Source: Segatella copri
GTDB taxonomy: Bacteria > Bacteroidota > Bacteroidia > Bacteroidales > Bacteroidaceae
Direction of reading: 5' to 3'
DNA: 64,000 nt
Assembly: GCF_949820605.1 (NCBI RefSeq)
Contig: NZ_CATKVU010000006.1
Span: forward strand, 1,596,501 to 1,660,500
Of this stretch, positions 4,798 through 23,636 are shown piece after piece. A model generated the notes under the pieces. It was not told the DNA's origin. It was given only the letters and a program-made list of their open reading frames with translations, and made no database searches. Made by a program: the position numbers and the translations under genes. Position 1 is the first letter of the stretch. Each line of letters starts with the position of its first letter.

Positions 4798-4821
4798 AGT
4801 ATTAATTTAAATGAATCGCGT

Positions 4822-5532: not shown

Positions 5533-5597
5533 AGTGGAGCCAACTTGCGAAAATTCAGTAACGGAAAATTTGCAGCAGGTTTTAAAAGATTAGAATT

Positions 5598-5789: not shown

Positions 5790-6397
5790 TGGAGGCAAAA
5801 ATACACAAACCCGTTTTAATTGTCATTGCAGGACCTAATGGTTCTGGGAAGACAACAATAACCAGTCGTGTATTACACCACGAATGGCTAGAAGATTCTA
5901 TTTATATCAACCCAGACAATATTGCACAAAATATGTTTGGCGATTGGAACAATCAAGATGCAGTATTAAAAGCAGCCCAATACTGCCAGGCTCAAAGAGA
6001 AGAATGCCTCAACAATAAACATAGTATGATTTTCGAAACAGTAATGTCCACTGCCGAGAAAATTGACTTTATCAAAAGAGCTAAAGAAGCTGGATTTTTT
6101 ATTCGTCTCTTTTTTGTAGGAACTTCCTCGCCAACAATAAATGCTTCAAGAATTGCTACTAGAGTAATGAAAGGTGGACACGATGTACCGATTACAAAGA
6201 TTATTTCAAGATATGCCAAATCCATCATCAATTGCGAAATAGCATCCCAATACGCCGACCGCACATACGTATATGACAACTCAAAAGACGGTGTAGAAGC
6301 TCAACTTCTTTTCAGAATGACAGAAGGTAAAATATTTAAGGAATACGTGAAGGAGATTCCGGAATGGGCTATAGGCATTGCCAACAAAGAAGAATAG
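5789..6397 (+). CDS. Zeta-toxin-like P-loop kinase
   Basis: 202 residues. Walker A GPNGSGKT at residues 15-22, then INPDNIA, and FETVMST in the position of the zeta substrate-binding glutamate. This fits the zeta-toxin/COG4185 predicted kinase family, whose toxic members phosphorylate UDP-N-acetylglucosamine and block wall synthesis. Target and toxicity here are inferred from family only. It is coupled by a 1-nt overlap with a 63-residue upstream ORF. Base composition is AT-rich relative to neighbouring core genes, fitting acquisition. The stop codon abuts a decayed repeat of the GIN locus. Confidence 0.75.
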   Translation: MEAKIHKPVLIVIAGPNGSGKTTITSRVLHHEWLEDSIYINPDNIAQNMFGDWNNQDAVLKAAQYCQAQREECLNNKHSMIFETVMSTAEKIDFIKRAKEAGFFIRLFFVGTSSPTINASRIATRVMKGGHDVPITKIISRYAKSIINCEIASQYADRTYVYDNSKDGVEAQLLFRMTEGKIFKEYVKEIPEWAIGIANKEE

Positions 6398-7680: not shown

Positions 7681-10080
7681 ATGAAAGTATTCAATTCTAA
7701 GCTTGCTGCCATCGGTTTGGCGGCATTCGTATTCGCATCATGTAGTGACAGCAATAGCGATCCTACAGATGGTTCAAAGATCAACGTAGTTGACCGCACT
7801 ACAATTACGCTTGCATCACAGAATGTAGATAACAGCCGTGTTGTAAACTACAAGAACACAACAGCTAAGGCAAGAAAGTTCTTCCTTAACACAAGAGTAG
7901 AAGACAGCTCTATTTTTCCTGTTTTCAAAGATGCTCCTGAAGAGGAAAACGCAAAGCAGCTCAACAACGCAGCTGACCTTACAAACAAGAACTATGCAAT
8001 TACTAGCAATAAGAGCCTTAACTTCGCTGGTAAGACTATCGAGGGTGCTACTATCTTTGTACACGGAGGCTCTACTTTCGAGTACGATAATACAACAAAG
8101 ATGACCAACACTACCATCGTTTTGCAGAGTAGCGCTACATTGAAATATACCGGCAATGGCGAAATGATAGCTAAAGGCAACACCGTATTCTGCACAGATG
8201 CCAAGAACAAGTTTGTTGCTACTGGTGACATCAACATCAATGGTGAACTTTACGCTAATTTTAAAGGCACTTCAAGCCAGGGCAAGGATTTGACAACAGG
8301 TCTTGGAGCTATCAAAGAAACTACTGCTGCAGAAAAGGCAAAGAGTATCACTCCTACTCAGAAGGTTACTTTCGGTGCTAATGCAAAGGCTTACATCAAG
8401 GGTTCTATCCGTGCCACAGTGTTGAACATCGAGAATGGTGCAAATATTTACACCACATCTAATATCTTCAGCAACGGTACTGTAAACATTAAAAGTCAGT
8501 TAGGCATAGAGGGCTTCCTGAAGGCTCAGGACCTCAACGTAGATGGCTACTTGGCCGCTGGCAAAAACTCTGCCATCAGAGTATTTGGTACTATGAACGT
8601 AAATGACGGTGCTTACATTTCTGCCAACTACATCAATGTCACAAACAACACGAAGGACGAAAAGGGAAAAATTGTCGCAGGCAACGCTACCCTCAACCTG
8701 AATAAGAATTGCTTGATTCGCTTAAGCAACAAGAACGTAATAAACGTCAACAACTTGGTAACAGACAACAGCAACCAGGGTCAGATTGAGTTGGCAGAAG
8801 ACAACGCTGTAGCAGTAATCAAGGCTGATAAGTTCGAAAACAATGGCAATGAGAGAATCCTTTCATTCAAGACCAGTGGCAATAACTCATGTTTTCTGTT
8901 CCAGTTTACAAAGTGCTTCAATGGCTCTACAGAGTTGAATACATTCGAGGATCTTGCTATCCAGGCTACATATATCGACTATGACAAGACTACCCAGAAC
9001 GATATGGTTGACTATAAGGATGAAAACAACACGCACTATGGTTATGAGTGGAAGGGTGATGCTTCACTGTTAGTCGCTAGCAAGAAACTCGATTTGATTG
9101 CATCTTCAGAAGATCCTAGTGACGGTCAGTCTGCAACATGTATTCAGCCAGCGAACGGCTTGCTCTACGTTTCATACCATACTAATGGTAACGATGTAGC
9201 AGGTGGCAACATCGAGGTTGCCAGAATGACTGAAGGTAACAAAAAGTTGACTATCGAGCAAAGCAAGAAGGCTGACAGAATCGACTACAACCACCTGATT
9301 GTTGATGGAAACAAGCTTTACCTCGCTGGTAGCCAGCAGGGCAATGGCTCAGCAGAAGGAACAGCTGTCGGTGCTTTCATGGGTGAGATTGAACTTACTG
9401 GTTCAGGCATTAGCGACAATATGGTACTCAATGCTGTTGACAAGAAGAACAGCAAGATAGATGCCAACTGCGTTGCAGCATTCGGCACAGACCATGTATT
9501 AGCAACAACCAAAGGTTTCTACGTATTCGACAAAGATGGCAACGCTGACCTCTACGGTTCCTCTGTAGGCAAACACGTTGTTACAGTAAACAGCAAGCTC
9601 TATGCATTGACAGAGGATGGCACGTTGAACGTTTACAACAGTTCTAATATGGAAACTGCTGAGAAGACTTACCAAGTTGGTGCTGTTGAGCCAAAGGGTA
9701 ACAAAGCAGTTGTAGCTGTTGACAATAATGGCGACATCTACGTCTGCAAGGGTAAGAACGGTGTAGCTAAGATTTCTGGTAGTACTGTAAATCAGGAGTT
9801 CTTTAAGTGCCCAACAATCTCTAACTCTGCTGATAAAAAGCATCCAGGAGAGGTAGAGGGTTGTGCCAACGGCATTGCAGTTGATGGCAGCTACGTATAT
9901 TTGGCATGCGGTAGCTATGGTCTCGTTGTATTAGACAAGAGTACTGGCACAAAAATCTGCCACCGTAAGGCTCCTAAGGAAAAGTCAGCCAACTATGTAG
10001 CTGTTGATGGTGAGAATATCTATGTAGCATACGGTAAGAGCCGTATCCAGGTATTCAAGCTGACAACAACGAAAGAATAA
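7681..10080 (+). CDS. Surface lipoprotein: beta-helix plus beta-propeller, paralogue 1
   Basis: 799 residues. Signal peptide with lipobox FASC (C21), followed by SDSNSDP, an acidic/serine start typical of surface-exported Bacteroidetes lipoproteins. Residues about 100-460 are repetitive short strands (NGTVNIKSQL, LNVDGYLAAG, GTMNVNDGAY) like a parallel beta-helix. Residues about 465-799 read as a beta-propeller with repeated (V/I)YLACGSYGLVVLD-type blades and end in YVAYGKSRIQVFKL. The downstream gene is a paralogue with the same order. It lies upstream of the polysaccharide genes and might bind or organise the exported polymer at the cell surface; this role is inference from position. Confidence 0.7.
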   Translation: MKVFNSKLAAIGLAAFVFASCSDSNSDPTDGSKINVVDRTTITLASQNVDNSRVVNYKNTTAKARKFFLNTRVEDSSIFPVFKDAPEEENAKQLNNAADLTNKNYAITSNKSLNFAGKTIEGATIFVHGGSTFEYDNTTKMTNTTIVLQSSATLKYTGNGEMIAKGNTVFCTDAKNKFVATGDININGELYANFKGTSSQGKDLTTGLGAIKETTAAEKAKSITPTQKVTFGANAKAYIKGSIRATVLNIENGANIYTTSNIFSNGTVNIKSQLGIEGFLKAQDLNVDGYLAAGKNSAIRVFGTMNVNDGAYISANYINVTNNTKDEKGKIVAGNATLNLNKNCLIRLSNKNVINVNNLVTDNSNQGQIELAEDNAVAVIKADKFENNGNERILSFKTSGNNSCFLFQFTKCFNGSTELNTFEDLAIQATYIDYDKTTQNDMVDYKDENNTHYGYEWKGDASLLVASKKLDLIASSEDPSDGQSATCIQPANGLLYVSYHTNGNDVAGGNIEVARMTEGNKKLTIEQSKKADRIDYNHLIVDGNKLYLAGSQQGNGSAEGTAVGAFMGEIELTGSGISDNMVLNAVDKKNSKIDANCVAAFGTDHVLATTKGFYVFDKDGNADLYGSSVGKHVVTVNSKLYALTEDGTLNVYNSSNMETAEKTYQVGAVEPKGNKAVVAVDNNGDIYVCKGKNGVAKISGSTVNQEFFKCPTISNSADKKHPGEVEGCANGIAVDGSYVYLACGSYGLVVLDKSTGTKICHRKAPKEKSANYVAVDGENIYVAYGKSRIQVFKLTTTKE

Positions 10081-10087
10081 TAACTTT

Positions 10088-10130
10088 TTTGTTCTTCCCT
10101 CACTCTCACATTTGAGTGAGGGAGAACAAA
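10088..10130 (+). terminator. Hairpin after lipoprotein paralogue 1
   Basis: TTTGTTCT-TCCCTCACT pairs with AGTGAGGG-AGAACAAA around a short loop. The downstream U-tract is poor, so it may be a terminator or an mRNA-stabilising stem. Confidence 0.6.
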
Positions 10131-10233
10131 CCTTATTCCAAGCTTAACTAGCATATCAGAAACAAACTAGCTAAAGCTAACTTTAAGGTTATCCGCTAAT
10201 TATCAATAAATAACAACGAAACAGAAAGCTAAA

Positions 10234-12729
10234 ATGAAAGCATTTAATATCAAACTTGCAACATTCAGCTTTGCAGCATTGCTCCTCGCTTCTTGTAGTG
10301 ATAGCAATAACGATAATGGAACAGAAGGATCATCAATCATGAATCCAAAAATCGTTGGTAGCACCGTTGTTTCAACTACAGATGCACAGACACTTGCTAC
10401 TCAGGTAACCAATTACAAAAAGAAAGCTGCAAGTACAACTAAGGCTACAAGAACAATTGATGCCAGCAATACTGATATTTTTGAGGGCGTAATTGATATG
10501 CCGGCAGAACCAGTTGTTCCTGCAGAAGCAATTGACTTGGTCTCAGCTCCACAAGGGACAGCATTATCTGGTAATGTTTTTAAAATTTCATCTGGAAACA
10601 TAGCTCTTACCAATCAATTCCAGATGAGCAATACCGCAACCATCTACGTAGAAAGCGGAGCAACCCTTACCTATAATTATTGGGAAGGTGGCTACAAAAT
10701 CATCGTATTGAAGGGCGGAAAGCTGGTTGATTCATACGGAAATGCTACCAAGCTCTGTGACATAGACAACTATGGTACAATTGAGTTCTCACAGGACAGA
10801 ATAGATATAAACCATACATTTAGAACATCAAAGAATTTGAATGTAGCTGGCAAATACCTTGCGATATCAGGCAAAGCCTATTTCGGCGGAAATGTCACTA
10901 CGAAGGCTCTCTATCCAGGAGGCTCAACCACCAATATCAAAGGAGATTTGCAACTGGGAGAAAATGAAGGATTAAAACTAGATGCTGTAAATGAGGTGCC
11001 AACCAAGATGAATGTGGATGGAAAGATTACAGCAAAAAGACTGGAATTGACAAACGGTTCTATCCTCTACTCAGGATGTGGTGCAGTAATCAATGAGGAA
11101 GTGTACATCACCGACAATACAGCTTTACATGCCAAATACCTGAAGTGTTCAAAATTCATTCAGAATTCAGGAGCCAAACTCATCCTGTCTGACCAGAGTT
11201 ACATCAATTGTTCTGGTGAATTTGCATCATATAACAACGATACCAGTTATAGCATTCTGGAAGGCGATGATGCCAAGGCGGTTATAAAGGCAGATAAGTT
11301 CTTTTTCAACAACGGTGCTCCACAGAATGATGATGCCGGTGAGGAATATTTCCTGGTAAAGATGTTCTCTACCCCAGGAAAAAACAACCCACAGATTGTA
11401 GCAGATGGAACATTCTATGTCAACGGGCAGAAAGCAAATGTAAGATTCACAGATGCCAATATGTTTGTTACAAACGGAGTAACCAAGAACGAGGTGGTTA
11501 TCAACCCAACAACAGATTGCGGTAATCCTGGATGGACAAATCCAAATCCAAAACCATCCCCAGAACCGGAGCCAGAACCAAATCCTACTCCAACACCAAA
11601 ACCAGAGCCAACACCAAATCCTAAACCAGGTTTGGATCTGATTACAACTGTGGAACCGGAACATACACATGAGATTTCAGCAACAGGCATCATGCCGCTA
11701 AACGGTTATCTTTACATGTCATACCACACCAACCAAAACCAGAAAGATAATGCAGATTATTCGCATGGTGGATGTATTGAGGTGATGTCACCAGTTAAAG
11801 ATGACCAGGCTGAGCTGAAACAGTATATTTACGATTCGGCAAGAGATCTCGACTTCAACCATATCCTGGCAACCAAGCTGAACAGCGACGAATATAAAAT
11901 CTTCCTGCCAGGAAGTTCAAACAAGAAGGGTGCTATGCTGGCATACATGGATATCAGAAAAGATCACATGCTGGCTGATGAATCGATGGAAATAACCAGC
12001 AAGGAAGGCGACGAAGTGACCATCAAGCAACCATTGAACTATATACAATTGAAACCTGCAACAGGAGACTATAAGGGTTACGATGAAAACTGCGTGGTAT
12101 ATAACGACAACACCAACCACCTGATTGTTGCAACAACCGAGGGGTATACTGTATATGACGCAACCACAATGAACGAGGTTGAGACATATAGCAAACCAGG
12201 AAAGGCAAAGCATTTGGCTATTGGTAACGGTAAGATTGTTGGTCTCTATCTGAATGAGAGAAACAAAGATACCAAGATAGGTATCCCCGCTACGATTGAA
12301 ATCATAAACGAGAAGACAGAGGACTTCAACGACACCAAGACATTCGACACCAACGTCAAGATAGAGCCTAATGATGGCAAGAATGTAATTGCTGTTAAAG
12401 ACAACAAGATTTATGCTTGCCTCAGTTCTGCCGGTCTCTATGTTTATGATATGAATGGCAACGAGCAATGGCACTACCAGATGCCGTCTCCAAAGAATAA
12501 AGAAGGAAAATGGAAGGCTCTCTGCAATGGATGTTTCGTTGACAACAACTATGTATATCTGGCATACGGCTCTTACGGAATTGTGGTAATCGACAAGAAT
12601 ACACATAAAGTAATTGCACATAGAGCCGTTGAGAAATCAGCCAACTATATCACGGTTCATAATGGATACATCTATGTTGCATACGGACGAAGCCGCATGC
12701 AGGTATTCAAATTGAACCTAGGCAAATAG
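10234..12729 (+). CDS. Surface lipoprotein: beta-helix plus beta-propeller, paralogue 2
   Basis: 831 residues. Lipobox LASC (C21) and SDSNND follow the same pattern as paralogue 1. An N-terminal beta-helix-like part (residues about 100-425) is joined to a C-terminal propeller (about 468-831) by a proline-rich hinge (about 432-466, repeated PEPEPNPTPTPKP). Paralogue 1 lacks this hinge. The last blades (YVYLAYGSYGIVVIDK and YIYVAYGRSRMQVFKL) align closely with paralogue 1, so this is a tandem duplication. The gene is followed by a long hairpin and then the TolC-like gene. It is likely exposed at the surface; the ligand is unknown. Confidence 0.7.
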   Translation: MKAFNIKLATFSFAALLLASCSDSNNDNGTEGSSIMNPKIVGSTVVSTTDAQTLATQVTNYKKKAASTTKATRTIDASNTDIFEGVIDMPAEPVVPAEAIDLVSAPQGTALSGNVFKISSGNIALTNQFQMSNTATIYVESGATLTYNYWEGGYKIIVLKGGKLVDSYGNATKLCDIDNYGTIEFSQDRIDINHTFRTSKNLNVAGKYLAISGKAYFGGNVTTKALYPGGSTTNIKGDLQLGENEGLKLDAVNEVPTKMNVDGKITAKRLELTNGSILYSGCGAVINEEVYITDNTALHAKYLKCSKFIQNSGAKLILSDQSYINCSGEFASYNNDTSYSILEGDDAKAVIKADKFFFNNGAPQNDDAGEEYFLVKMFSTPGKNNPQIVADGTFYVNGQKANVRFTDANMFVTNGVTKNEVVINPTTDCGNPGWTNPNPKPSPEPEPEPNPTPTPKPEPTPNPKPGLDLITTVEPEHTHEISATGIMPLNGYLYMSYHTNQNQKDNADYSHGGCIEVMSPVKDDQAELKQYIYDSARDLDFNHILATKLNSDEYKIFLPGSSNKKGAMLAYMDIRKDHMLADESMEITSKEGDEVTIKQPLNYIQLKPATGDYKGYDENCVVYNDNTNHLIVATTEGYTVYDATTMNEVETYSKPGKAKHLAIGNGKIVGLYLNERNKDTKIGIPATIEIINEKTEDFNDTKTFDTNVKIEPNDGKNVIAVKDNKIYACLSSAGLYVYDMNGNEQWHYQMPSPKNKEGKWKALCNGCFVDNNYVYLAYGSYGIVVIDKNTHKVIAHRAVEKSANYITVHNGYIYVAYGRSRMQVFKLNLGK

Positions 12730-12780
12730 TCAAAGAATGATTGCTCAAAAGGCAATAAGTAATAAAATAAGAAACACCAG

Positions 12781-12816
12781 ATGAATGCAGCTGCAACAGC
12801 TCGCAGCTGCATTCAT
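12781..12816 (+). terminator. Strong hairpin between lipoprotein and export genes
   Basis: Perfect 14-bp stem ATGAATGCAGCTGC / GCAGCTGCATTCAT with an 8-nt loop; flanking AAACAC / TGTTT can extend it. Only a short T-run (TTTAATAA) follows, so partial termination or RNA processing is as likely as full termination. Confidence 0.6.
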
Positions 12817-12834
12817 CGTGTTTAATAACTCATT

Positions 12835-14238
12835 ATGAAGCGAAAAATAATACGATACTCAACAACAGTTCTGCTACTTCTCATGGCAGCACAAAGCACT
12901 ATGGCTCAGACGAAAGGCAAAAAGCCGAAAAGTTTCAGCCCTAAGATGCTCGTATATGAGAATCTGAAGAACGATAATGTACTGAGACACTTCAAACAGC
13001 GCTTCGCACAACTCGACACTCTCATCAAAAACCCTATCTGGGTGAAAGCACCAGTCATAGAACTGGGACTCAACAAACAACATACAGCGGACATCAAAAA
13101 GACTGATTCCCTGTACTGGGCGAAGACGGCACACGAACAACTCGCCCTCAACCGACAAAACGGTCTGGAAGTGACCGGACAGGTTTATGCCCGACCTGAC
13201 GCGTACTTCGATTCTGATGAAGACGATGCAAAAGAGGTATCAAAATATAAGATGAAGGTTCAAGCCGAACTGGGTTGGAACATCATCAACTCGAAGTTCT
13301 ACCAAGGCAAGGAGAAAAGAACAAAAATAGCTCTTGCCAATGAACTCGACCGCTTGCAAATAAAAAAGCGCCAAACTGCAGACATCTATGAAAAGGCAGC
13401 CGATGAGCTGACCGAACAATATAATTTCTATATCGGTACTGTCATAGCACACAGACTGGACAACCTCGACATCATGAACGAAGCGTACCAGTTTATGCTG
13501 GAAAAAGACCGAATCAGCAACGACAAGATGCTGAAAGTGATGAACGAAAAGCTGGAGGCTGAATATGACATCTCCGTGCTCTGCACAGACAGAGATATCA
13601 CCAACAAGCCTATCTACCGCATCAAACCAACCAAGATCGTGGTAGACACAACAGCCCTCTGGAACCATCTGAACCAGGAAAGTCTGGATGCACGCATCAT
13701 GATGGTGAAAGAACAGATTGCTGACAACGACAGCAAGCTGACCAACTATTTAAGCACTACCCGACTCACACCATTCGCAAGATGGTCGAGCTACTGGCAG
13801 AGCAACAACAAGATTTCGAACAATGCCGACGTGGGCGTAAGATTCACCATTCCTATATGGAACGAAACGCCACGCAAACGACAGGCACTGGAGACCCAGA
13901 AGGAAATCATACGCAGCAGCCGCGGTACCGATGTGAAGGAAATAAAACAGTCGGTAGGCATCCTGCTCAAGAAGATAGACAACCTGAACAAGGCTATAGC
14001 CACAGAGGCTTTCCATATAGACCAGACCGGCAAATATATCGAAATGCGGCGGTTTGCCTACCAGAACCAGAAACAGGGATACAACTATCTGATGCGTATG
14101 GACGAATATACGGGACTCCTGGAAAGTATGGAGCGTATGTACAAACTGATGCAGAACCGGGCCCTCGCTATCATCAATATAGAGAAAGCCGTGAGCATCT
14201 ATGACAACAACAACATCTTCAAAGAAATAGAACTTTGA
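12835..14238 (+). CDS. TolC-like outer-membrane export protein
   Basis: 467 residues with a signal peptide (MKRKIIRYS..STMAQ). Long helical segments dominate, and ADVGVRFTIPIWNETPRKRQ (residues about 342-361) matches the GxxxSxPLFxGxxRxxQ strand-turn-helix motif of TolC-family outer-membrane factors. A related but weaker repeat is in the first half (KVQAELGWNII), as expected for the two-repeat TolC fold. It is followed 18 bp later by an HlyD-like gene, the usual adaptor partner. No ABC or RND pump gene is present; the inner-membrane partner is instead a glycosyltransferase. It may be the outer-membrane duct of the polysaccharide system. Confidence 0.7.
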   Translation: MKRKIIRYSTTVLLLLMAAQSTMAQTKGKKPKSFSPKMLVYENLKNDNVLRHFKQRFAQLDTLIKNPIWVKAPVIELGLNKQHTADIKKTDSLYWAKTAHEQLALNRQNGLEVTGQVYARPDAYFDSDEDDAKEVSKYKMKVQAELGWNIINSKFYQGKEKRTKIALANELDRLQIKKRQTADIYEKAADELTEQYNFYIGTVIAHRLDNLDIMNEAYQFMLEKDRISNDKMLKVMNEKLEAEYDISVLCTDRDITNKPIYRIKPTKIVVDTTALWNHLNQESLDARIMMVKEQIADNDSKLTNYLSTTRLTPFARWSSYWQSNNKISNNADVGVRFTIPIWNETPRKRQALETQKEIIRSSRGTDVKEIKQSVGILLKKIDNLNKAIATEAFHIDQTGKYIEMRRFAYQNQKQGYNYLMRMDEYTGLLESMERMYKLMQNRALAIINIEKAVSIYDNNNIFKEIEL

Positions 14239-14256
14239 ATGTAAGGAAACTAGAAT

Positions 14257-15438
14257 ATGAATGAATTCCAATATAACGGCACGCCACAAGAACAGGCGAT
14301 GGCAGACTTGCTGAAGTCGCAGGGTCACCGCCTTGCCAGACAGCAGATTGTCTTTGCCCTGATCTTCCTGCTGGTTATCGTGCTTGCCGCCTACTATATT
14401 GTCACTCGTATGATATGGGCAACCTTCGACGGTTATATAACCCTCGATGAAAACCGTATCAGTGCCGTTGACGACATCTATATTCTTAAGGTGAACAAAG
14501 AAATGGGTGAAGTGGTACATAAGGGAGATACGCTCTACTCTTATGTACTGCTAGGTAATATTGTGAACCAATACGACCCGAACATCCTGCCTTCAGCCGT
14601 AAAGGAGACTCACGACATGGAGGTACAGGCTAAACTCGCACAGCAGGAGATTCCGGTGCTGCGTACCCGACTTGCCGAACTGAGAAAACAGAAAGCCTCT
14701 GAAAGTTCGGACATCTACTACGGTCTTACCGACAACACCAAGCGAAATGCACTGGATGCCGAGATTGCCGAGGTAGAAGAGGAATTGAGAAAGCAGGCTA
14801 ACAAGGTGGAAATCTACGCACAGGCTAAGAACACCACCTTTAACTTCATGAGCCACAGAGGAGCCGGCACCACAAATGCTGCCATGCCTTACTCCAACAC
14901 TAGCATCTACAACCCAAGTCTGGTACACTACTGCTGTGCACCAGCCGATGCTTACATCACAAAAATCAATGTGAGCGACAAAACCCTGGTGTTCAAAAGC
15001 GAGGAGGTGATGGTTATCCAGCATACCGACTATGCAGACTGTCATCTGGGCGTAATCGCATACGTACCCAACGACATGGTGAAGTATATGGAAAGCCCTG
15101 ACGATGCAGACATCATCATCAACAAAGACCTGAAACTGCAGGCTAAGTTGCAGATGGTAGGTCTGAGAGTAGAGGAAATACCAAAGCATCTGCAGAGTAA
15201 CTTCTCGCATGATGCCAACGCAGTGGTTGCCGTCTTCACCCTGAACCCGAACCAGAGAGTACCGGCATGGGTAATGAGCAACAGACTGCCGGTAAGAGTA
15301 AGAGTGAACAAGATTGATGCCATGCTCGATCCGAAGCCACTACCGATGTACACCATCCCAGTGGGCAAGAACGAAAACGTGAAGCGAAGCAACATGATTT
15401 CGAGCGGCAACAATAATCATCAAGATAAAACGGAATAA
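14257..15438 (+). CDS. HlyD/Alg44-like periplasmic adaptor
   Basis: 393 residues. A short cytoplasmic N-terminus is followed by one membrane helix (residues about 30-52), then a split lipoyl-like region (DIYILKVNKEMGEVVHKGDTL and, after the coiled coil, APADAYITKINVSDKTLVFK). A coiled-coil-prone segment lies at about 127-190. This is membrane-fusion-protein architecture. In alginate and related synthase systems, Alg44-type proteins carry the same periplasmic fold. There is no PilZ domain here. Spacing of 18 bp to the upstream gene and 3 bp to the downstream gene indicates one operon. Confidence 0.75.
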   Translation: MNEFQYNGTPQEQAMADLLKSQGHRLARQQIVFALIFLLVIVLAAYYIVTRMIWATFDGYITLDENRISAVDDIYILKVNKEMGEVVHKGDTLYSYVLLGNIVNQYDPNILPSAVKETHDMEVQAKLAQQEIPVLRTRLAELRKQKASESSDIYYGLTDNTKRNALDAEIAEVEEELRKQANKVEIYAQAKNTTFNFMSHRGAGTTNAAMPYSNTSIYNPSLVHYCCAPADAYITKINVSDKTLVFKSEEVMVIQHTDYADCHLGVIAYVPNDMVKYMESPDDADIIINKDLKLQAKLQMVGLRVEEIPKHLQSNFSHDANAVVAVFTLNPNQRVPAWVMSNRLPVRVRVNKIDAMLDPKPLPMYTIPVGKNENVKRSNMISSGNNNHQDKTE

Positions 15439-15441
15439 AGA

Positions 15442-17061
15442 ATGATTGGACTTAGAAGAAACAAACGTGGAGACATGGTGCTCACCATCGATAGCTATAT
15501 AGATATCGACTCGACACCGGACATCCAGTCCGACTACTTCGATTGTGTTTACATCAATACGAAGAGTGAGCGTGCGTTCCATGCTATACTGTATGGAGCC
15601 AGTCCAATCTTATCGTGGAAATGTAGCTACAAACCGATATTCGTCAATACAGCGGTATCGGGAAAGGAACAGATTATCGACTATATCATCGATGCCTATG
15701 TGAGCGACATGAGCAATGAGAAGGTATACGAGATTATTGACAGAATCAAGATGGCAAGACAGAAGTTTGGTGTAAAAAGCGAAACAAGCCGTCCTACACA
15801 GCCTAACCAGCTCTTTGCCAATATTCTGAGATTCCTGCTCTCAAGAGACCAGCGAATCATGGGACACCGACTGCTGGAAAAATCGTCTTTGGGATATATC
15901 AACCCTATCTTCGAGCACTACCACAGTATGGGTCTCTTCCATCTCAACGAGATGTTCATGTTCATCGACTCTATGGTGGAGTACGGTTCACTGCGCATTC
16001 ACCGCTTCCTGCTCAAGGAGCACCTATGCCCTAAGTGTAACCACTCTCACCTGCTCTATACAGAGTGCTGTCCGAAGTGCGGAAGTTCGAACCTGAAGAT
16101 TCAGAACATCATCCACCACTTCAGCTGCGCCAACGTATCGCCGGAAAGCAGCTATAATGTGGGCGGTATGCTCATCTGTCCGAAGTGTCACAAGAAACTG
16201 CGCCACATCGGTGTTGACTATGACAGACCAGCCGTGGTATATACCTGCAACGACTGCGAGAACTCGTTTACCGCGCCTATCACCAAGTCAACCTGCTGCT
16301 ACTGCCAGAGCACCTATCCGGTAAATGCCCTGGTGCCACGAGACGTTGTGGACTACGAGATAACGGAAGAAGGAATCAGAGCACTGACCAACGGCAACAT
16401 CATGTTCAACAACATGGCGAACATCTATGATAACTTCATGGAATATTACCTGCTGATAAACCGACTGCGACGCCAGCTGATGGAAACCTACCGCAAGGAT
16501 GAACTCTCGGTCATGGTAGGCAAGATATGGATTATAGATGATAACAAGGATACCGTAAAGATAAAGGAAAGCATACAGGGCAAGCTCTGTAGAATCTTCT
16601 CCAATCACAAGGTGTCTTACAACAACAATATCTTCTACGTATCCTCTACCCTCTATGAGCAGGGAGAAACGGTGGAAGAGGCTCAGCAGAAATTGAGCAA
16701 GGAGATGTCGGTAGCCATCAGAAAGCTGGCCAACTCGATAGAACCGGACGAGATTATCTGCAGCATGCTGGAAACCAAGACGAAGACCATCGCCAACAAC
16801 TATGACGAGTTCTTCAACAAACTGCAATATGTGGATATGACTCCAGACGACTACTGCCGCTACTCAGAGGAACCTCTGATGAAGGAAGAAGAGAAAAAGG
16901 TGCAGCCGCAGGAAGAGTTGCTCGACACGGAGCCGAAGGAAGATGAAAACGACAAGATACAGAAGCGCATCGTGCTCTACAAGAAACTCGTTGCTATCCT
17001 TGTCACCATCGCAGGTATACTCATACTTATGGTACTCTTAGCACTTACCGTGCTGAGATAA
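15442..17061 (+). CDS. TackOD1-type zinc-ribbon membrane protein
   Basis: 539 residues. Residues about 190-290 carry cysteine pairs CPKC (196/199), CPKC (210/213), CPKC (246/249), CNDC (269/272) and CYC (286/288). With IIHHFSCANVSPE and LRHIGVDYDRP these fit the TackOD1 zinc-ribbon output domain. The N-terminal 190 residues have no recognised domain. Residues about 355-440 form a mixed alpha/beta region, possibly a degenerate nucleotide-cyclase-like fold, but no GGDEF motif is present. An acidic linker and one membrane helix (about 516-538) end the protein. It probably senses or transmits a signal to the adjacent glycosyltransferase; that is inference from gene order. Confidence 0.65.
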   Translation: MIGLRRNKRGDMVLTIDSYIDIDSTPDIQSDYFDCVYINTKSERAFHAILYGASPILSWKCSYKPIFVNTAVSGKEQIIDYIIDAYVSDMSNEKVYEIIDRIKMARQKFGVKSETSRPTQPNQLFANILRFLLSRDQRIMGHRLLEKSSLGYINPIFEHYHSMGLFHLNEMFMFIDSMVEYGSLRIHRFLLKEHLCPKCNHSHLLYTECCPKCGSSNLKIQNIIHHFSCANVSPESSYNVGGMLICPKCHKKLRHIGVDYDRPAVVYTCNDCENSFTAPITKSTCCYCQSTYPVNALVPRDVVDYEITEEGIRALTNGNIMFNNMANIYDNFMEYYLLINRLRRQLMETYRKDELSVMVGKIWIIDDNKDTVKIKESIQGKLCRIFSNHKVSYNNNIFYVSSTLYEQGETVEEAQQKLSKEMSVAIRKLANSIEPDEIICSMLETKTKTIANNYDEFFNKLQYVDMTPDDYCRYSEEPLMKEEEKKVQPQEELLDTEPKEDENDKIQKRIVLYKKLVAILVTIAGILILMVLLALTVLR

Positions 17062-17087
17062 GCCATCAAGAAGAAAGGGAAAAGCGT

Positions 17088-18404
17088 ATGTTTAGCATAG
17101 CAGAACATCTGAACGATTTCTTCGACTGGATCAGCACGCTATCGTTTAGCAGTATCGTGAAAACCTACTGGTTCCTCTTCTTCATCGAGATGCCAAGATA
17201 TTATATCCTGGAATATCTCGTAATCGGAAACCGACTGATGAAGAGAAACCAGATAGATAAAGAGAAAGAATATGCCAAATTCTTCCTGTACCGCGAGAAT
17301 CCACTCGTAAGTATCCTCGTACCGGGAAAGAACGAAGGCAAACATATATTCAAAATGGTGAACTCGCTGGCTGAGCAAACCTACCGCAACTACGAAATCA
17401 TCGTGGTAGACGATGGTAGCGACGACGACACCAAACTGATTTGCAACGACCTCTACCGGGCCGGGTATATTACCCACTACCTGAGATTGGATACAAGAGG
17501 CGGTAAAGCTGCCGCCAGCAACTATGGAGCCCAGATGGCAAGAGGCAAATACATCGTATGTCTGGATGCCGACTCTTCGCTCGACCGTGATGCACTGGAG
17601 AAGATTCTACTCCCCTTCTACATCGACGGAATGGTAAAGGGTGTAGGCGGATGCGTGAAGGTACGCAACTACAAGGAAACCATCTGCTCATCGCTGCAGG
17701 CTTTCGAATACCTGAAGCGAATACAGGTGGGACGTATCGTAACCAGCGAACTGGGTATCTACCACATCATCTCGGGAGCATTCGGAGCCTTCGAAAGAAA
17801 GACGCTGAAAGAAATAGGCTACTGGGATATCGGACCGGGACTGGACGGTGACCTGACACAGAAGCTCCGCAAAGCCGGATATAAAGTGAAATTTGCCGAA
17901 GATGCCATCTGCATGACCAATGTGCCTACCAAATGGTACAAGCTGTATCATCAGCGCATCAGATGGTCGCGCTCGCTCGTGAGATTCCGTCTACGCAAGC
18001 ATGCCGACATTCTGTTGCCTACAAAGAACTGGAGTATCCTTAACTGGTTATCTAATATGGAGAGTGTGGTTTTCGACTGCTTCCTCAATTTTCTGTGGTT
18101 GTGGTATATCATCAAGCTCGCCATCACGTTTAACACGCACATCGTTGAAGTGCTGGCACTGGGCTACTTCATCAGAGTATGCTTCTCGCAGCTTGCCTTC
18201 ATCCTGGTGCTGATGGTTTCAGAAAGAAAGAAAGACGTGTGGTTCCTCTACAGATACCTGCCACTGATGTCGCCTTATACAGGTTATTTCCTGCGTATCG
18301 CCCGCCTGTCGGCTCATCTGCAAGAGATCTTCTTCCGACGTTCTTACAAGGACGCCTGGAATCCAGAGAAGACTTCGCGCTATGCTCAGCTTGAAGGAAT
18401 CTAA
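17088..18404 (+). CDS. Processive family-2 glycosyltransferase (polysaccharide synthase)
   Basis: 438 residues. N-terminal membrane segment (about 22-45), then a GT2 domain with VVDDGSDD (D108/D109), the metal-binding DADSS (D160, D162), GPGLDGDLT at the catalytic-base position (D253/D255) and QRIRW (289-293), the Q/RxxRW signature of processive synthases. Two or three membrane helices follow (about 327-347 and 351-378). This is the layout of hyaluronan, Alg8 and cellulose-type synthases, which polymerise and translocate across the inner membrane. The adjacent dehydrogenase suggests a uronic-acid-type substrate. No PilZ domain is fused. Confidence 0.85.
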   Translation: MFSIAEHLNDFFDWISTLSFSSIVKTYWFLFFIEMPRYYILEYLVIGNRLMKRNQIDKEKEYAKFFLYRENPLVSILVPGKNEGKHIFKMVNSLAEQTYRNYEIIVVDDGSDDDTKLICNDLYRAGYITHYLRLDTRGGKAAASNYGAQMARGKYIVCLDADSSLDRDALEKILLPFYIDGMVKGVGGCVKVRNYKETICSSLQAFEYLKRIQVGRIVTSELGIYHIISGAFGAFERKTLKEIGYWDIGPGLDGDLTQKLRKAGYKVKFAEDAICMTNVPTKWYKLYHQRIRWSRSLVRFRLRKHADILLPTKNWSILNWLSNMESVVFDCFLNFLWLWYIIKLAITFNTHIVEVLALGYFIRVCFSQLAFILVLMVSERKKDVWFLYRYLPLMSPYTGYFLRIARLSAHLQEIFFRRSYKDAWNPEKTSRYAQLEGI

Positions 18405-18411
18405 AAGACCT

Positions 18412-18448
18412 GAGCTACTTGCTGTAACATACTTACAGCAGGGAGCTC
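18412..18448 (+). terminator. Hairpin between synthase and dehydrogenase genes
   Basis: GAGCT..TGCTGTAA pairs with TTACAGCA..AGCTC around CATAC. No U-tract follows, so it is more likely a processing or stabilising stem. Confidence 0.4.
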
Positions 18449-18495
18449 CCAATAAAAGAAATAACATTATATAAAACATAAACAGAATATAGTAT

Positions 18496-19752
18496 ATGAT
18501 AAACAAGTCTTTTGAGTTTAAGATTGGAGTAATAGGATTGGGATATGTTGGTACTCCACTGGCATGCTTATTCTCAAAGAAATACGATACATGGGGTTAT
18601 GACATCAAAGCTGAGAAGGTAGCCAAGTTAGCCAAAAGCGCGATGGAAGACAACAGACCTGTATCCAAAGCTTTGGAACAGGGACTGAAACTGACCAGCA
18701 ATATTGATGACCTGAAGAAGTGTAATGTGTATATTATCGCTGTACCGACACCGGTGAACAAATCGAACAAGCCAGACATCAGTTGCGTGCGCAATGCTAC
18801 AGCTGAGGTTGGCAGGATTCTGAAAGAAGGTGATATCGTAGTCTACGAGAGTACCGTTTACCCAGGTCTGACAGAAGAGGTCTGCGCTCCATTACTGGCA
18901 TCTACATCAGGATTGAAGTTGAACCAGAGTTTCTTTGTAGGCTTCTCGCCAGAGCGCATCAACCCGGGCGATACTGTTCATACCATCGAGAACATCGTTA
19001 AGGTTACCAGCGGTTCTACACCCGAAGCAGCAGCTATCATCGACAGTCTCTATGCTTCAGTACTTACCCATGGCACCTACAGGGCGAAGAGTATCAGAAT
19101 AGCAGAGGCATGTAAACTGATGGAGAACTGCCAGAGAGACGTGCAGATAGCCTTCTTCAATGAGATGGAAAAGATTTTCGACAAGATGAACATCAACATC
19201 GAAGACGTAACGGCGGCAGCTAGCACAAAATGGAACTTCGTGCCAGCTACTCCAGGACTCGTTGGCGGCCACTGCATCGCGGTAGACCCATACTACCTGA
19301 TTAACAAGGCACAGGAGGTTGACGTGGTACCATCGCTGCTCTCTACAGCCCGCGAGGTTAACGAGCAGATGGCGGTATGGATAGCAGGAAAGATAAAGAA
19401 TGCATCTGAAAGCAGAAAGTTCAAGGCTCCGGAGACTAACGTGCTGATTCTCGGCTTCTCGTTCAAGCCAGACAGCGATGATATCAGAAATACAAAAGTA
19501 GCCGATCTCTATATCAACCTGGTAGGAGCAGGTTACAAAACCACACTCTACGATCCATTGGTAGATGTAGAGGAAGTAAAAAAAGATTATAACATTAAGG
19601 TGACAGATGATCCTAAAGTTCTGGAAAAGGAGTACCAGATTGTGGTAATCGGTACCCATCACAAAGTGTTTGACAGTATTGACATGAACAAACTTATCTC
19701 GGATAAAGGATTCATGTGCGACATTTATGGCATTCACAAGCCAAGAAGCTAG
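18496..19752 (+). CDS. TviB/WecC-type UDP-sugar 6-dehydrogenase
   Basis: 418 residues. Rossmann motif GVIGLGYVG (11-19), YESTVYPG, SPERINPGD (151-159) and the catalytic cysteine in LVGGHCIAVDPYYL (C260). SPERINPGD and GGHCxxVDPYYL are typical of the VipA/TviB and WecC branch, which oxidises UDP-N-acetylhexosamines to the uronic acids. Ugd proper has GGSCFPKDT instead. It should supply UDP-HexNAc-uronate, or possibly UDP-glucuronate, to the synthase upstream. It lies 91 bp after the synthase gene and 43 bp before the response regulator. The exact sugar cannot be decided from the sequence. Confidence 0.85.
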   Translation: MINKSFEFKIGVIGLGYVGTPLACLFSKKYDTWGYDIKAEKVAKLAKSAMEDNRPVSKALEQGLKLTSNIDDLKKCNVYIIAVPTPVNKSNKPDISCVRNATAEVGRILKEGDIVVYESTVYPGLTEEVCAPLLASTSGLKLNQSFFVGFSPERINPGDTVHTIENIVKVTSGSTPEAAAIIDSLYASVLTHGTYRAKSIRIAEACKLMENCQRDVQIAFFNEMEKIFDKMNINIEDVTAAASTKWNFVPATPGLVGGHCIAVDPYYLINKAQEVDVVPSLLSTAREVNEQMAVWIAGKIKNASESRKFKAPETNVLILGFSFKPDSDDIRNTKVADLYINLVGAGYKTTLYDPLVDVEEVKKDYNIKVTDDPKVLEKEYQIVVIGTHHKVFDSIDMNKLISDKGFMCDIYGIHKPRS

Positions 19753-19795
19753 AGCTTCAAGACCAGATAGAACCTTTATAATAAACCAGTGAAAA

Positions 19796-20179
19796 ATGGA
19801 AAAGAACAAAGTGCTAATCGTCGATGATATTTCAGAAAATATTGAAACTATTTCTGAAATGATAAAGGACTTTGACATCGACGTGAAAACTGCAAATGGC
19901 GGAAAAGAAGCCATTGAACTGATTGACTCATTCAAGCCGGACGTGATACTGCTCGACTTGATGATGCCAGATGTAACTGGGTGGGATGTAATAGACCATG
20001 TACGCTCTAAATACTCGAAAAGTGAAATGGTCATCATCGTGGTTTCCCTGTTAAGCAACAAGGATAATGTGGATGAATGCTACGAGCTTGGAGTAAACGA
20101 CTACATCACAAAGCCTATCATCAAAGCCCGTCTCACCAGTTCGCTAGACGCTCATCTAAGCAGTCTTGCAAGAGGTTAA
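19796..20179 (+). CDS. Stand-alone response regulator receiver protein
   Basis: 127 residues, a single CheY-like domain. Acidic pair D10/D11, phospho-acceptor D54 in LLDLMMPD, S84 and K106 in YITKP are all present, so it should be phosphorylatable. It has no DNA-binding or enzymatic output domain and no histidine kinase is nearby. It probably acts by protein contact, perhaps on the TackOD1 protein or synthase in the same locus. Its stop codon overlaps the convergent pflA stop codon by 4 bp. Confidence 0.85.
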   Translation: MEKNKVLIVDDISENIETISEMIKDFDIDVKTANGGKEAIELIDSFKPDVILLDLMMPDVTGWDVIDHVRSKYSKSEMVIIVVSLLSNKDNVDECYELGVNDYITKPIIKARLTSSLDAHLSSLARG

Positions 20180-20904
20180 AGTGCCTCTTGCAAGATTGCA
20201 TCTGCATGAGCTATGCGATCACTAGTAGGAGAATCTATGCCTTCCAGCGGGTAGGCAACACCTAGTTTCTCATACTTGTAGATACCCATCGTATGATAGG
20301 GTAAGACATCTATACGCTCAATATTAGAGAGTGTAGAAAGAAAATCGCGCAACTGATAGAGGTATTCATCCTTGTCGGTAATACCTGGAATCAGGATGTG
20401 ACGAATCCATACTGGTTTGTGTATCTCGCTTAAATAACGTGCACAATCCAGTATGTTTACATTAGAATGGCGGGTGAGTTTACGATGCTCTTCATCGTTG
20501 ATATGCTTGATATCAAGAAGAACAGTATCAGTGACGGCCATCAGACGCTCGAATTTATCGAAGAAAGCACCCTCTTTCCTAAATGGTTGCGCTGATGTAT
20601 CAAGACAGGTATTGATGCCACGCTGATGGGCTTTCTCGAAAAGTTCGATGAGAAAGTCTATCTGCATCAGGGCTTCTCCACCACTTACAGTAATACCGCC
20701 CTTGTCACCCCAATAACTCTTGAATCGCTCTGCTTTATCCAACAGGTCATCGGCACTCCACTCTTCTCCTACCCCCGTTTTCCAGGAATCCGGGTTATGG
20801 CAGAACTGGCAGCGCATCGGACACCCCTGCAGGAAAATCAAAAATCTGATGCCTGGTCCATCTACAGAACCAAAGCTCTCTATGCTGTGAACAAATCCTT
20901 TCAT
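20176..20904 (-). CDS. pflA: Pyruvate formate-lyase activating enzyme
   Basis: 242 residues, cytoplasmic radical-SAM enzyme that makes the glycyl radical on PflB. The cluster motif is CPMRCQFC (C28, C32, C35), with VSGGE as the SAM-binding GGE motif and a PflA-type N-terminus SIESFGSVDGPGIR. Its start codon overlaps the stop of a 34-residue ORF (ATGA), which itself follows a 72-residue membrane protein gene; the three form a coupled operon downstream of pflB. The stop overlaps the convergent response regulator stop at a shared TTAA. Confidence 0.95.
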   Translation of the reverse strand: MKGFVHSIESFGSVDGPGIRFLIFLQGCPMRCQFCHNPDSWKTGVGEEWSADDLLDKAERFKSYWGDKGGITVSGGEALMQIDFLIELFEKAHQRGINTCLDTSAQPFRKEGAFFDKFERLMAVTDTVLLDIKHINDEEHRKLTRHSNVNILDCARYLSEIHKPVWIRHILIPGITDKDEYLYQLRDFLSTLSNIERIDVLPYHTMGIYKYEKLGVAYPLEGIDSPTSDRIAHADAILQEAL

Positions 20905-21005
20905 GCGCCGACTTTCTTTTCTTGGTAATTATCCCAAAGAATAAAAGCAAGCCCAGGAACGACTATAAGAGCAGTGACGACACCCAAAAAATCAACTAAA
21001 TCCAT
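20901..21005 (-). CDS. 34-residue membrane microprotein
   Basis: ATG at 21005 gives MDLVDFLGVVTALIVVPGLA and then FILWDNYQEKKVGA: one hydrophobic helix with a basic C-terminal tail. The stop overlaps the pflA start (ATGA) and the upstream gene ends 2 bp before it, so translation is coupled on both sides. Two similar-sized proteins lie at 51033 and 51436. Function unknown; small size makes this a candidate until expression is shown. Confidence 0.6.
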   Translation of the reverse strand: MDLVDFLGVVTALIVVPGLAFILWDNYQEKKVGA

Positions 21006-21007
21006 AA

Positions 21008-21226
21008 TTATTTCTTTTTATTTTTAGACTTTATTATAAAATACATTCCTAATGCAACTATCAAGACCATAAAGAAAACGCCCCAAGCATACAACCTAGT
21101 TCTATCTATATTATCTTGCATAATTCCTGCAAAAATGACACCACCAAGAATGAGCTTGACAACATCAAAACAGAATTTGTAACCCTCTTCATAAAGGGCT
21201 TTCTTTTGTTCATTATTTAGTTTCAT
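21008..21226 (-). CDS. Two-helix small membrane protein (DUF6722-like)
   Basis: 72 residues: a short amphipathic start (MKLNNEQKKALYEEGYKFCF), two membrane helices (about 22-38 and 46-65) and a KSKNKKK tail. It resembles small Bacteroidetes membrane proteins filed as DUF6722; this comparison is from memory. It is the first gene of a coupled three-gene operon ending in pflA. The promoter element TATCTTTG (21231-21238) ends only 4 bp before the ATG, so the mRNA may be leaderless. Confidence 0.65.
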   Translation of the reverse strand: MKLNNEQKKALYEEGYKFCFDVVKLILGGVIFAGIMQDNIDRTRLYAWGVFFMVLIVALGMYFIIKSKNKKK

Positions 21227-21230
21227 ACCG

Positions 21231-21238
21231 CAAAGATA
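21231..21238 (-). promoter_or_regulatory. Promoter element just before the microprotein-pflA operon
   Basis: TATCTTTG on the minus strand, separated from the ATG at 21226 by CGGT. Transcription would begin at or next to the A of the start codon. Confidence 0.5.
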
Positions 21239-21284
21239 GCACTTTTTTCAATACCAAGTTTAAATTTGCAGTTAAATAAGCTAA

Positions 21285-21327
21285 ATTGCCCGCTAAATAT
21301 CCTCGGAAAGAAAATCTAGCGGGCAAT
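21285..21327 (-). terminator. Terminator-like stem after pflB
   Basis: 11-bp perfect stem ATTGCCCGCTA / TAGCGGGCAAT with a 21-nt loop. The T-run is short. Confidence 0.55.
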
Positions 21328-21386
21328 CTATATGTTACAAAGAGACAAGAGAATTCTTCACTCTTCCCTCTTCATTCTTCACTTCC

Positions 21387-23636
21387 TTAGAGTCTCTCGT
21401 GAGCCTGACGAGCGATTACGTCGAGCTGCTGCTCGCGTGTCAAGTCGATGAACTTAACAGCGTAACCACTCACACGGATAGTGAAGTTCTGGTACTCTTC
21501 TTTCTCTGGATGCTCCATAGCATCCTTGAGCTTGTCGATACCGAATACGTTCACGTTCAGGTGGTGAGAACCCTGGTTGAAGTAACCATCCAATACACCT
21601 ACCAATGTCTGGGCACGCTCCTCATCGTTATGACCGAGAGCACCTGGACTGATGGTCTGAGTATTAGAGATACCATCGAGAGCATACTCGTATGGCAACT
21701 TAGCTACTGAGTTCAATGAAGCCAAAAGACCGTTCTTCTCTGCACCGTAAGATGGGTTAGCACCTGGAGCCAAAGGAGCACCGGCTGGACGACCATCAGG
21801 CATGTTGCTGGTGAACTTACCGTATACTACATTTGATGTGATAGTCAAGATAGATGTAGTAGGCTCTGAATTGCGGTATGTATGATGCTTCTTGATCATG
21901 TTCATGAAGGTCTTGAGCAACCATACTGCAATCTCATCAGCACGCTCATCATCGTTACCGTAACGTGGGAAGTCACCCTCGGTCTTGAAGCTGAGAGGGA
22001 AACCAGTCTCATCACGGACGATGTTTACCTTGGCATACTTGATAGCTGAGATAGAGTCAACCACGTGGCTGAAACCAGCGATACCTGTAGCGAAAGTACG
22101 ACGAACATCTGTATCGATGAGCGCCAACTCTGCTGCCTCGTAGAAGTACTTATCGTGCATGTAGTGGATGAGGTTCAATGTCTTCACATAAACGCCAGCC
22201 AACCAGTCCATCATATCCATGAAACGTGGCATGAACTCCTCGTATGTCAACACATCACCCTCAACGGCGCGATACTTAGGACCGCACTGCTCGCGTGTCT
22301 TTGAGTCAACACCGCCAGATACAGCGTAGGTCAAGCACTTAGCCAAGTTGGCACGTGCACCGAAGAACTGCATTTCCTTACCTGTCTGAGTAGCAGATAC
22401 ACAGCAGCAGATGCTATAGTCGTCACCCCAAACTGGACGCATTACGTCATCGTTCTCATACTGGATAGAACTTGTCTTTACAGAAATCAAAGAAGCGTAG
22501 TGCTTGAATGCCTTTGGCAAGCGAGAGCTATAGAGTACTGTCAAGTTTGGCTCTGGTGAAGGACCCATGTTCTCCAATGTGTGGAGGAAACGGAAATCGT
22601 TCTTGGTAACCATTGAGCGGCCATCCTGACCCATACCACCTACTTCGAGAGTAGCCCAAACTGGGTCGCCGGTGAAGAGTTCGTTATAAGAAGGGATACG
22701 GGCGAACTTAACCATACGGAACTTCATGACCAAGTGGTCGATGAGCTCCTGAGCCTCATCCTCGGTAAGAGTACCCTCATTCAAATCGCGCTGGATATAG
22801 ATGTCGAGGAATGTAGAGATACGGCCTACAGACATCGCAGCACCATTCTGAGTCTTCACAGCTCCGAGGTAACCGAAGTACAACCACTGAACAGCCTCGC
22901 GAGCGTTCTTAGCAGGCTGAGAGATGTCGTAACCATACAACTGAGCCATCTCCTTCAAGCCCTTGAGAGCCTTGATCTGCATAGAAACCTCTTCACGAAG
23001 ACGGATTACTTCGTCAATCATCTCACGGTCGCCCATGTTAGCGAGGTCGTTCTTCTTCTCCTCGATGAGGAAGTCGATACCATAGAGGGCTACACGACGG
23101 TAGTCACCTACGATACGGCCGCGACCGTATGTATCAGGAAGACCGGTAAGAATGTGGTTATGGCGAACGAGCTTCATCTCTGGAGTATAAGCATCGAATA
23201 CGCCATCATTATGAGTTTTGCAATACTTGTGGAAGATTTCGTGGAGCTTCTCTGATGGCTGATAGCCATATGTTGTACAAGCCTGCTCCGCCATCTTGAT
23301 ACCACCGTAAGGCATGAAGGCACGCTTCAGAGGCTTATCAGTCTGAAGACCTACCACTTTCTCCAAATCCTTTGTACCTTCACCAATATAAGCAGCACCA
23401 TAAGCTGTCAATCCTGAAACGATTTCTGTTTCCATATCAAGCACACCACCCTTGGCGCGCTCCTCCTTCTGGAGTTCCTTCAACATACCCCAAAGGGTAT
23501 TAGTTGCCTGAGTTGGTTCTGCAAGGAACGACTCATCGCCGTCATAACAAGTGTAGTTGTTCTGAATGAAATCACGAAGATTCACTTCACTCTGCCACAT
23601 GTTTCCTTTGAAACCTCTCCATTCTGTTTTCATCAT
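21387..23636 (-). CDS. pflB: Pyruvate formate-lyase (formate C-acetyltransferase)
   Basis: 749 residues. Converts pyruvate and CoA to acetyl-CoA and formate during fermentation, in the cytoplasm. The glycyl-radical motif is RVSGYAVKF near the C-terminus (G724), and the catalytic cysteine pair sits in [14 protein letters not shown] (about residue 410). Both match PflB. The start is MMKTEW at 23636 (or the second Met, 23633); the longer reading to 23684 is AT-rich leader. Its activase lies downstream in a separate small operon. A small ORF with its own terminator is positioned upstream, which may affect its expression. Confidence 0.97.

Follow-up and report, generated by a model that had tools for sequence, protein, structure and literature searches.

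A candidate operon for TolC/HlyD-coupled polysaccharide secretion with a proposed TackOD1 control protein in Segatella copri

The window analysed here is a stretch of 64,000 nucleotides of Segatella copri DNA. Eight of its genes, all on the + strand (7681-20179), are predicted to form an operon that makes and secretes a polysaccharide under the control of a TackOD1 protein, and we consider this joint reading likely, with moderate confidence. The core of the locus (12835-18404) encodes a TolC-like channel, an HlyD-like adaptor, the TackOD1 protein, and a glycosyltransferase family 2 (GT2) synthase; two lipoprotein genes precede it and genes for a dehydrogenase and a stand-alone receiver follow it. 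An open reading frame (ORF) check confirmed all eight genes at their coordinates, and the intergenic gaps from 7681 to 20179 are, in order, 153, 105, 18, 3, 26, 91, and 43 bases, of which those of 18, 3, and 26 bases are internal to the core. The initial annotation had described genes on one strand with short gaps from 12835 onward, and the ORF coordinates and the gap computation agree with this description. The nearest named relative found, Segatella copri iA622 (locus L001), has the identical eight genes in the identical order. A chance arrangement is unlikely because other genomes repeat this gene order. The gene set, its conservation, the domain make-up, the GGDEF-like fold without a catalytic motif, and the motif pattern described below were determined from sequences and models.

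The synthase, its putative export partners and their conservation

A species-genome collection was scanned with a TackOD1 alignment, which gave 52 loci, 44 of them from Bacteroidales (L001-L044). Repeat fetches of one locus (L045/L054, L050/L055, and similar) were counted once, and L005/L006 come from separate contigs of a single genome. The full OEP-HlyD-TackOD1-GT2 set is found in 14 of the 44 Bacteroidales loci, 11 of which also have the dehydrogenase, and 30 of the 44 have a TackOD1 and a receiver gene only. Seven of the eight other loci (L045-L052) have a GT2 gene and L052 does not. Additionally, five genome samples were searched with the Pfam TackOD1 model alone, ignoring linkage, although the samples were centred on genomes already found. 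TackOD1 scored over its cut-off in 30/301 genomes from the family of L001, 10/296 Bacteroidota (the phylum of L001), 11/349 Pseudomonadota (L050), 6/194 Verrucomicrobiota (L051), and 4/35 Omnitrophota (L046). The pooled samples, with one twice-drawn genome removed, hold 62 different TackOD1 genes. A GT2 gene of the window family lies within 7 kb of TackOD1 for 46 of these genes, in four phyla and usually with an HlyD gene; it is on the opposite strand at L173 and 4.2 kb away at L163. The remaining 16 are TackOD1-receiver pairs from one clade. In the reverse test, with at most five candidates scored per genome, the GT2 (E <= 1e-100) was found in 14 of the 301 genomes of the family sample, all of them TackOD1-positive. 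The linkage is more than one inherited arrangement because the gene order varies among loci: L150 reads TackOD1-GT2-channel-adaptor, the adaptor follows GT2 in L149 and L160, and the dehydrogenase precedes TackOD1 in L164-L167. The initial annotation had named a lack of co-occurrence elsewhere as the result that would speak against it; co-occurrence was in fact observed, for all four genes in 14/14 full Bacteroidales loci and for TackOD1 with GT2 in four phyla.

The GT2 gene (17088..18404, +) encodes a putative polymerase and inner-membrane exit. Pfam and NCBIfam models were used to annotate the locus; in the Pfam scan, which covered nine window proteins, this protein matched Glycos_transf_2 with 106.9 bits, and hydrophobic helices are predicted at its C-terminus. 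Its Q-x-x-R-W, D-A-D, and G-x-D-G-D residues are invariant or almost so across 21 sequences, and the sequence points to a membrane GT2 with processive-type motifs. This argues against a non-processive GT2 that glycosylates lipid or the surface lipoproteins while the channel exports a short glycan, an alternative that we regard as distinctly unlikely. The best named model is that of PgaC/IcaA (TIGR03937 equivalog), which also disfavors this alternative, albeit at 162.1 against a cut-off of 422.3. In its favor, just two C-terminal stretches of the GT2 clear a simple hydropathy cut-off, and lipoprotein genes head the operon in 9/14 full Bacteroidales loci, where relatives of lipoprotein 2 lie upstream of the channel gene (L005/L006, one genome, counted apart). 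A search for GT2 relatives in viral contigs found none.

The channel protein (12835..14238, +) scored 21.5 bits with Pfam OEP, just under the cut-off of 22, and was therefore modelled. The model (14 sequences, pLDDT 76.1) has two beta hairpins and two helices of ~65 residues, which is the plan of TolC. A Foldseek search against the PDB gave 38 matches at E <= 0.001, all TolC-type outer-membrane factors as judged by title and length, some of the titles (e.g. 5azo, 5azp, 5azs, 5ng5, and 9j3d) giving just a membrane protein or a whole pump; the TM-scores are modest, about 0.3-0.5. A TolC fold is thus predicted. The adaptor (14257..15438, +) was assigned from HlyD_3 (18.9 bits, below the cut-off of 22.2), a family alignment, and one predicted N-terminal membrane helix (hydrophobic stretch 31-49). 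The adaptor and channel genes are adjacent and kept in 14/14 full Bacteroidales loci, and an adaptor and outer-membrane exit are encoded with the synthase.

TolC and HlyD proteins are generally known as partners of pumps, and the pair could work for an unlinked ABC or RND pump with GT2 as a chance neighbour. Pfam identified no ABC or RND pump protein among the eight locus proteins, a search that spans the locus genes alone, so that a pump encoded elsewhere in the genome is possible. The linkage of GT2 and TackOD1, mostly with an HlyD gene, over four phyla and in several gene orders makes this explanation most improbable. Furthermore, the 30 Bacteroidales genomes with a lone TackOD1-receiver pair have neither a window-family GT2 (E <= 1e-30) nor a matching HlyD (E <= 1e-10), whereas the same thresholds recover GT2 in 13/13 and HlyD in 5/5 full-locus genomes. 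Single absences carry little weight because many of the lone-pair genomes are drafts.

The nucleotide-sugar 6-dehydrogenase (18496..19752, +) is TviB-like and is the putative supplier of a UDP-HexNAc uronate. It matches the Pfam UDP-sugar dehydrogenase domains (110.7, 89.6, and 70.3 bits) and exceeds the cut-off of subfamily TIGR03026 (368.6 vs 189.8), and it falls below that of the TviB equivalog NF011729 (383.5 vs 592). TviB (UDP-GlcNAc 6-dehydrogenase) is nevertheless the top-scoring model for the window enzyme and for 9/9 others tested, which come from several kinds of Bacteroidota loci and one Pseudomonadota locus, with all ten scores under the cut-off. The nearest relatives of solved structure are a putative UDP-ManNAcA dehydrogenase and Cap5O. 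Outside Bacteroidota, the dehydrogenase was seen only beside the core of L152, on the opposite strand. The polymer probably contains N-acetyl-hexosaminuronic acid. In the initial annotation, the locus was proposed to export an aminouronate polymer. The export part of this proposal holds in that the GT2 is encoded with an HlyD-like adaptor and a TolC-type channel, and the TviB-like scores are compatible with an aminouronate polymer, without proving it, in the loci that have the dehydrogenase.

The same annotation likened the locus to alginate synthesis. Alg8-Alg44 shares with the window a synthase, an HlyD-like adaptor, and a uronate precursor enzyme; it differs in that its adaptor carries PilZ and its outer-membrane proteins are others. 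The likeness did not hold up among the nine window proteins scanned, where no PilZ (E <= 0.1), AlgK-type, or AlgE-type match was found. Neither the adaptor nor the GT2 matched PilZ, the Pfam matches of the locus include no AlgE-type barrel or AlgK-type TPR protein, and the channel model is TolC-like. It is consequently very unlikely that this is a diverged alginate-type system in which TackOD1 only stabilises the complex and a TolC-like protein replaces AlgE/AlgK, as had been suggested. The occurrence of a synthase, an adaptor, and a uronate-forming dehydrogenase together does fit such a system, but the dehydrogenase favors TviB and UDP-ManNAcA dehydrogenase over GDP-mannose dehydrogenase, and the GT2 relatives of solved structure include chondroitin, heparosan, and hyaluronan synthases, with PgaC as the best named model.

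The TackOD1 protein and the receiver

The TackOD1 protein (15442..17061, +), the proposed control subunit, was examined by Pfam, a structure model, and motif alignment. It matches TackOD1 (PF18551) with 148.3 bits against a cut-off of 32 and is divided into an N-domain (~1-120), the TackOD1 zinc domain (124-307), a GGDEF-like domain (~322-472), and a C-terminal membrane helix (516-534). The modelled GGDEF-like fold has no catalytic motif, which is a PelD-like trait. The domain also has no RxxD inhibitory site (I-site) for cyclic di-GMP (c-di-GMP); at the aligned place, which we take to be the canonical location of this site in GGDEF domains, the window protein reads SNHK.

GGDEF enzymes (E <= 1e-10) were found in 0/38 Bacteroidota genomes tested and in 20/22 other genomes. 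Among the TackOD1 proteins, RxxD stands at the I-site place in 19/21 whose genomes have GGDEF enzymes and in 2/39 whose genomes do not; this table of 60 proteins omits the incomplete L179 and includes, for L164, the receiver-bearing copy alone (its other copy lacks R there). Both enzyme-free genomes of the Verrucomicrobiota sample (L160 and L163) also lack RxxD. Fisher's p for this pattern (2e-11) ignores kinship and is unusable as such. Since the c-di-GMP binding motif is kept, the TackOD1 relatives in c-di-GMP-using phyla are probably switched by c-di-GMP, like PelD. We propose that in Bacteroidota, where the motif is mostly lost, an intact phospho-receiver takes over in many loci, either fused or next door. 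TackOD1 had initially been seen as a part of the export machinery; it appears instead to be a signal-receiving subunit. A SPOR-like tail on the Bacteroides-type TackOD1 proteins, suspected by eye, was unconfirmed by Pfam.

The stand-alone response-regulator receiver (19796..20179, +) matches Response_reg with 88.7 bits and has D10, D11, D54, S84, and K106, the five phosphorylation residues that are kept in 39/39 aligned stand-alone receivers (score > 70, length < 200 aa). The initial annotation merely listed this gene; it may encode the input to TackOD1. A receiver gene lies alongside in 13/14 full Bacteroidales loci, with a longer protein (~340 aa) in five Bacteroides-type loci, and in the lone pairs it starts 14-129 bases past the last TackOD1 sense codon. 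The strongest sign that the two proteins may act together is a reciprocal fusion. The window protein carries the N-domain joined to TackOD1, with the receiver encoded by its own gene; in L168, L169, L170, and L172 it is the receiver that is joined to TackOD1, and the N-domain has its own small gene (109-119 aa), located between those for HlyD and TackOD1. The separate N-domain matches the N-domains of other TackOD1 proteins (99.1%, E 1.8e-18) as well as the Prevotellaceae type (91.2%, E 1e-6). A fifth receiver-TackOD1 fusion locus, in L164, ends at the N-domain point.

The mechanism that we infer concerns the polymer, the direction of transport, the contact between receiver and TackOD1 protein, and activation. 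A histidine kinase would phosphorylate the receiver, which would dock on the TackOD1 protein, perhaps via the N-domain. The TackOD1 protein, as a cytoplasmic control subunit, would then permit polymerisation and extrusion by the GT2, which would polymerise at the inner membrane and extrude the chain itself. The chain would cross the periplasm and the outer membrane by way of the HlyD-like adaptor and the TolC-like channel, and the two lipoproteins would handle the polymer at the surface. Switching would thus perhaps depend on a phosphorylation relay rather than on the small-molecule signal that is usual. More tentatively, and with a little less than even confidence, we suggest that TackOD1 proteins are an unrecognised class of signal-receiving subunits for TolC/HlyD-coupled synthases. 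In this joint proposal, control by c-di-GMP through a non-enzyme GGDEF domain would be ancestral and would have been rewired to a phospho-receiver where c-di-GMP is absent, as receiver and N-domain underwent reciprocal fusion and fission, and in one clade the TackOD1-receiver pair would have outlived the synthase and serve another target.

Alternatively, the TackOD1 protein could be a metal- or redox-responsive protein or a scaffold rather than a regulator, with the receiver gene belonging to another pathway. The TackOD1 protein has invariant cysteines, the function of the domain is termed obscure in published work (PMC5847659), and in many loci no receiver gene was found. The receiver fusions, the RxxD-bearing GGDEF-like domain of relatives, and the pairing of TackOD1 with a receiver in 30/30 lone pairs point the other way, and we regard this alternative as unlikely.

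A number of results weigh against a polysaccharide operon controlled by TackOD1, or against parts of the mechanism. The first group concerns the receiver. The loci L175-L185, two of which have cut flanks, yielded a same-strand receiver gene in 0/11 cases, and none was found in L030, L047-L049, L165-L167, and L171 (L047 and L048 have a gene for a receiver-like protein on the opposite strand); no GGDEF enzyme was found in the tested genomes of the receiver-less loci either. The second group concerns domain assignment. In profile-profile comparison the window-type N-domain did not match receivers (<1%) and the window-type C-terminal domain did not match GGDEF (0.5%; 0.9% vs the bridging set), and the GGDEF assignment in the window therefore depends on the model and on position, the C-terminal domain being supported as GGDEF by bridging sets and the structure model only. 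Foldseek gave nothing for the TackOD1 protein model at E <= 0.001 (best 2.2e-3). The I-site pattern has four exceptions (L050 and L158 without RxxD despite enzymes; L171 and L172 with RxxD and no enzymes). On a tree built by a quick method from 55/92 alignment rows, which left out mainly Bacteroidales rows, the pattern is reduced to 2-3 independent contrasts (median sign test p 0.5) and hence is no independent statistical evidence.

The third group concerns the export partners outside Bacteroidota. The window-type channel model matched 0/19 loci there, and the channel candidates are partial and less certain. The L150 candidate is over the cut-off for Pfam OEP, and those of L152, L155, L156, L173, L174, and L186 are matches to large proteins of L045-L049, which are themselves weak for OEP where scanned (L045 19.3 and L049 13.0, both below the cut-off; L048 none); the L173 candidate has no OEP match by Pfam. 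The HlyD proteins are better represented, as their own model matches 13/19 of these loci and Pfam adds L150, L159, and L162; Pfam gives nothing for the L163 candidate, and no HlyD was found in L148 and L154. Finally, the family sample has 30 TackOD1 genes, 16 of them without a synthase, and these 16 together with L052 indicate that TackOD1 has another role too.

Three further observations were made on related loci. In L029 (14857-18041), a 339 aa receiver protein and then a 710 aa PAS-containing hybrid histidine kinase are encoded downstream of the locus, and this kinase is a candidate upstream kinase for the system. The genome of L164 has two TackOD1-GT2 copies (3659-6335 and 17143-19914) on opposite strands within ~16 kb, one in which TackOD1 has an intact receiver and one in which it has the N-domain. 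In L175 (9772-11691), the locus is followed by a large membrane protein whose end resembles, by eye, a PP2C phosphatase and which may offer another input route.

Relation to described systems

No account of this gene set was found in the open-access literature, as covered by titles and the openings of abstracts, with subscription papers mostly outside this coverage. In this literature TackOD1 is named in one paper and PF18551 in two, the second of them about a plasmid. The nearest published proposal is the XcsAB-TolC cellulose model of cyanobacteria, in which, according to the part of a 2025 review available to us (PMC12430437), a GT2, an HlyD-like, and a TolC-like protein are proposed partners. 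The three genes are there described as not being in one operon, the synthase has PilZ, and experimental validation is lacking. The window shares the GT2 synthase, HlyD-like adaptor, and TolC-like channel with this model and differs in that all three share an operon with a TackOD1 protein and that its GT2 has no PilZ match. The bgsBA operon for mixed-linkage glucan in rhizobia likewise combines a GT2 synthase with an HlyD-like protein under post-translational control; as far as the consulted section of PMC9495663 describes it, this operon has two genes and c-di-GMP binds the synthase itself. PelD, a degenerate-GGDEF receptor, carries GAF according to a table in PMC10519070, where the window protein has TackOD1 and no I-site. 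Pel is also exported by other proteins. TackOD1 was described from archaea and some bacteria, and the archaeal TackOD1 response regulators, which share the REC-TackOD1 architecture with TackOD1 as an output domain, occur in type IV pilus loci in the portion of PMC5847659 available to us.

If the proposed reading is correct, TackOD1, described in PMC5847659 as a domain of obscure function, would gain a role, and the locus would provide a one-operon case of TolC/HlyD polysaccharide secretion, the route for which the 2025 review (PMC12430437, in part) reports no experimental validation. The reading would also mean that gut bacteria for which searches gave no GGDEF enzyme can retain a c-di-GMP-controlled machine and rewire it. 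These ideas are testable in a culturable commensal because Segatella copri iA622 has the same eight genes.

Lone pairs, lipoproteins and flanking genes

The lone TackOD1-receiver pairs, without synthase or adaptor, come from 30 Bacteroidales genomes (L004, L007-L027, L034-L036, L038, and L040-L043). Two of the 30 were included in the tree; both branch within the Bacteroidales group that has the full locus (support 96), a placement that suggests loss of the synthase. In five lone-pair loci that were viewed, a RibF-like gene and a gene for a small cysteine-rich protein lie nearby (by eye). L052, which lies outside the five samples, encodes a TackOD1 protein with RxxD (3102-4268); no GT2 was found in the locus, and the genome has GGDEF enzymes.

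The first gene of the window locus encodes a putative surface lipoprotein of 799 aa (lipoprotein 1; 7681..10080, +) with C-terminal propeller-like repeats, whose PQQ_2 and LVIVD matches are both below the Pfam cut-off. Lipoprotein 2 (831 aa; 10234..12729, +) has a DUF5074 region (Pfam 27.4 bits vs a cut-off of 27.2). The lipoprotein signals of both, including the lipobox of lipoprotein 1, were assigned by eye. Pattern matching alone points to a hairpin (15-17 pairs; 12780..12817, +) downstream of lipoprotein 2 and ahead of the channel gene, a possible partial terminator. The locus may accordingly be expressed as two units, with the lipoprotein genes in one and the remaining genes in the other.

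No tRNA was found in the window. Upstream of the locus, a zeta-toxin-like kinase (PF06414, 44.9 bits) is encoded at 5789-6397, and an ORF at 3475-4431 (-) encodes a lipoprotein-like protein with many near-identical EGVGSVKI-type repeats and, by eye, a GIN-type domain. At 20176-23684 (-), genes for pyruvate formate-lyase activase and pyruvate formate-lyase (by eye) converge on the receiver gene and overlap it by 4 bases.

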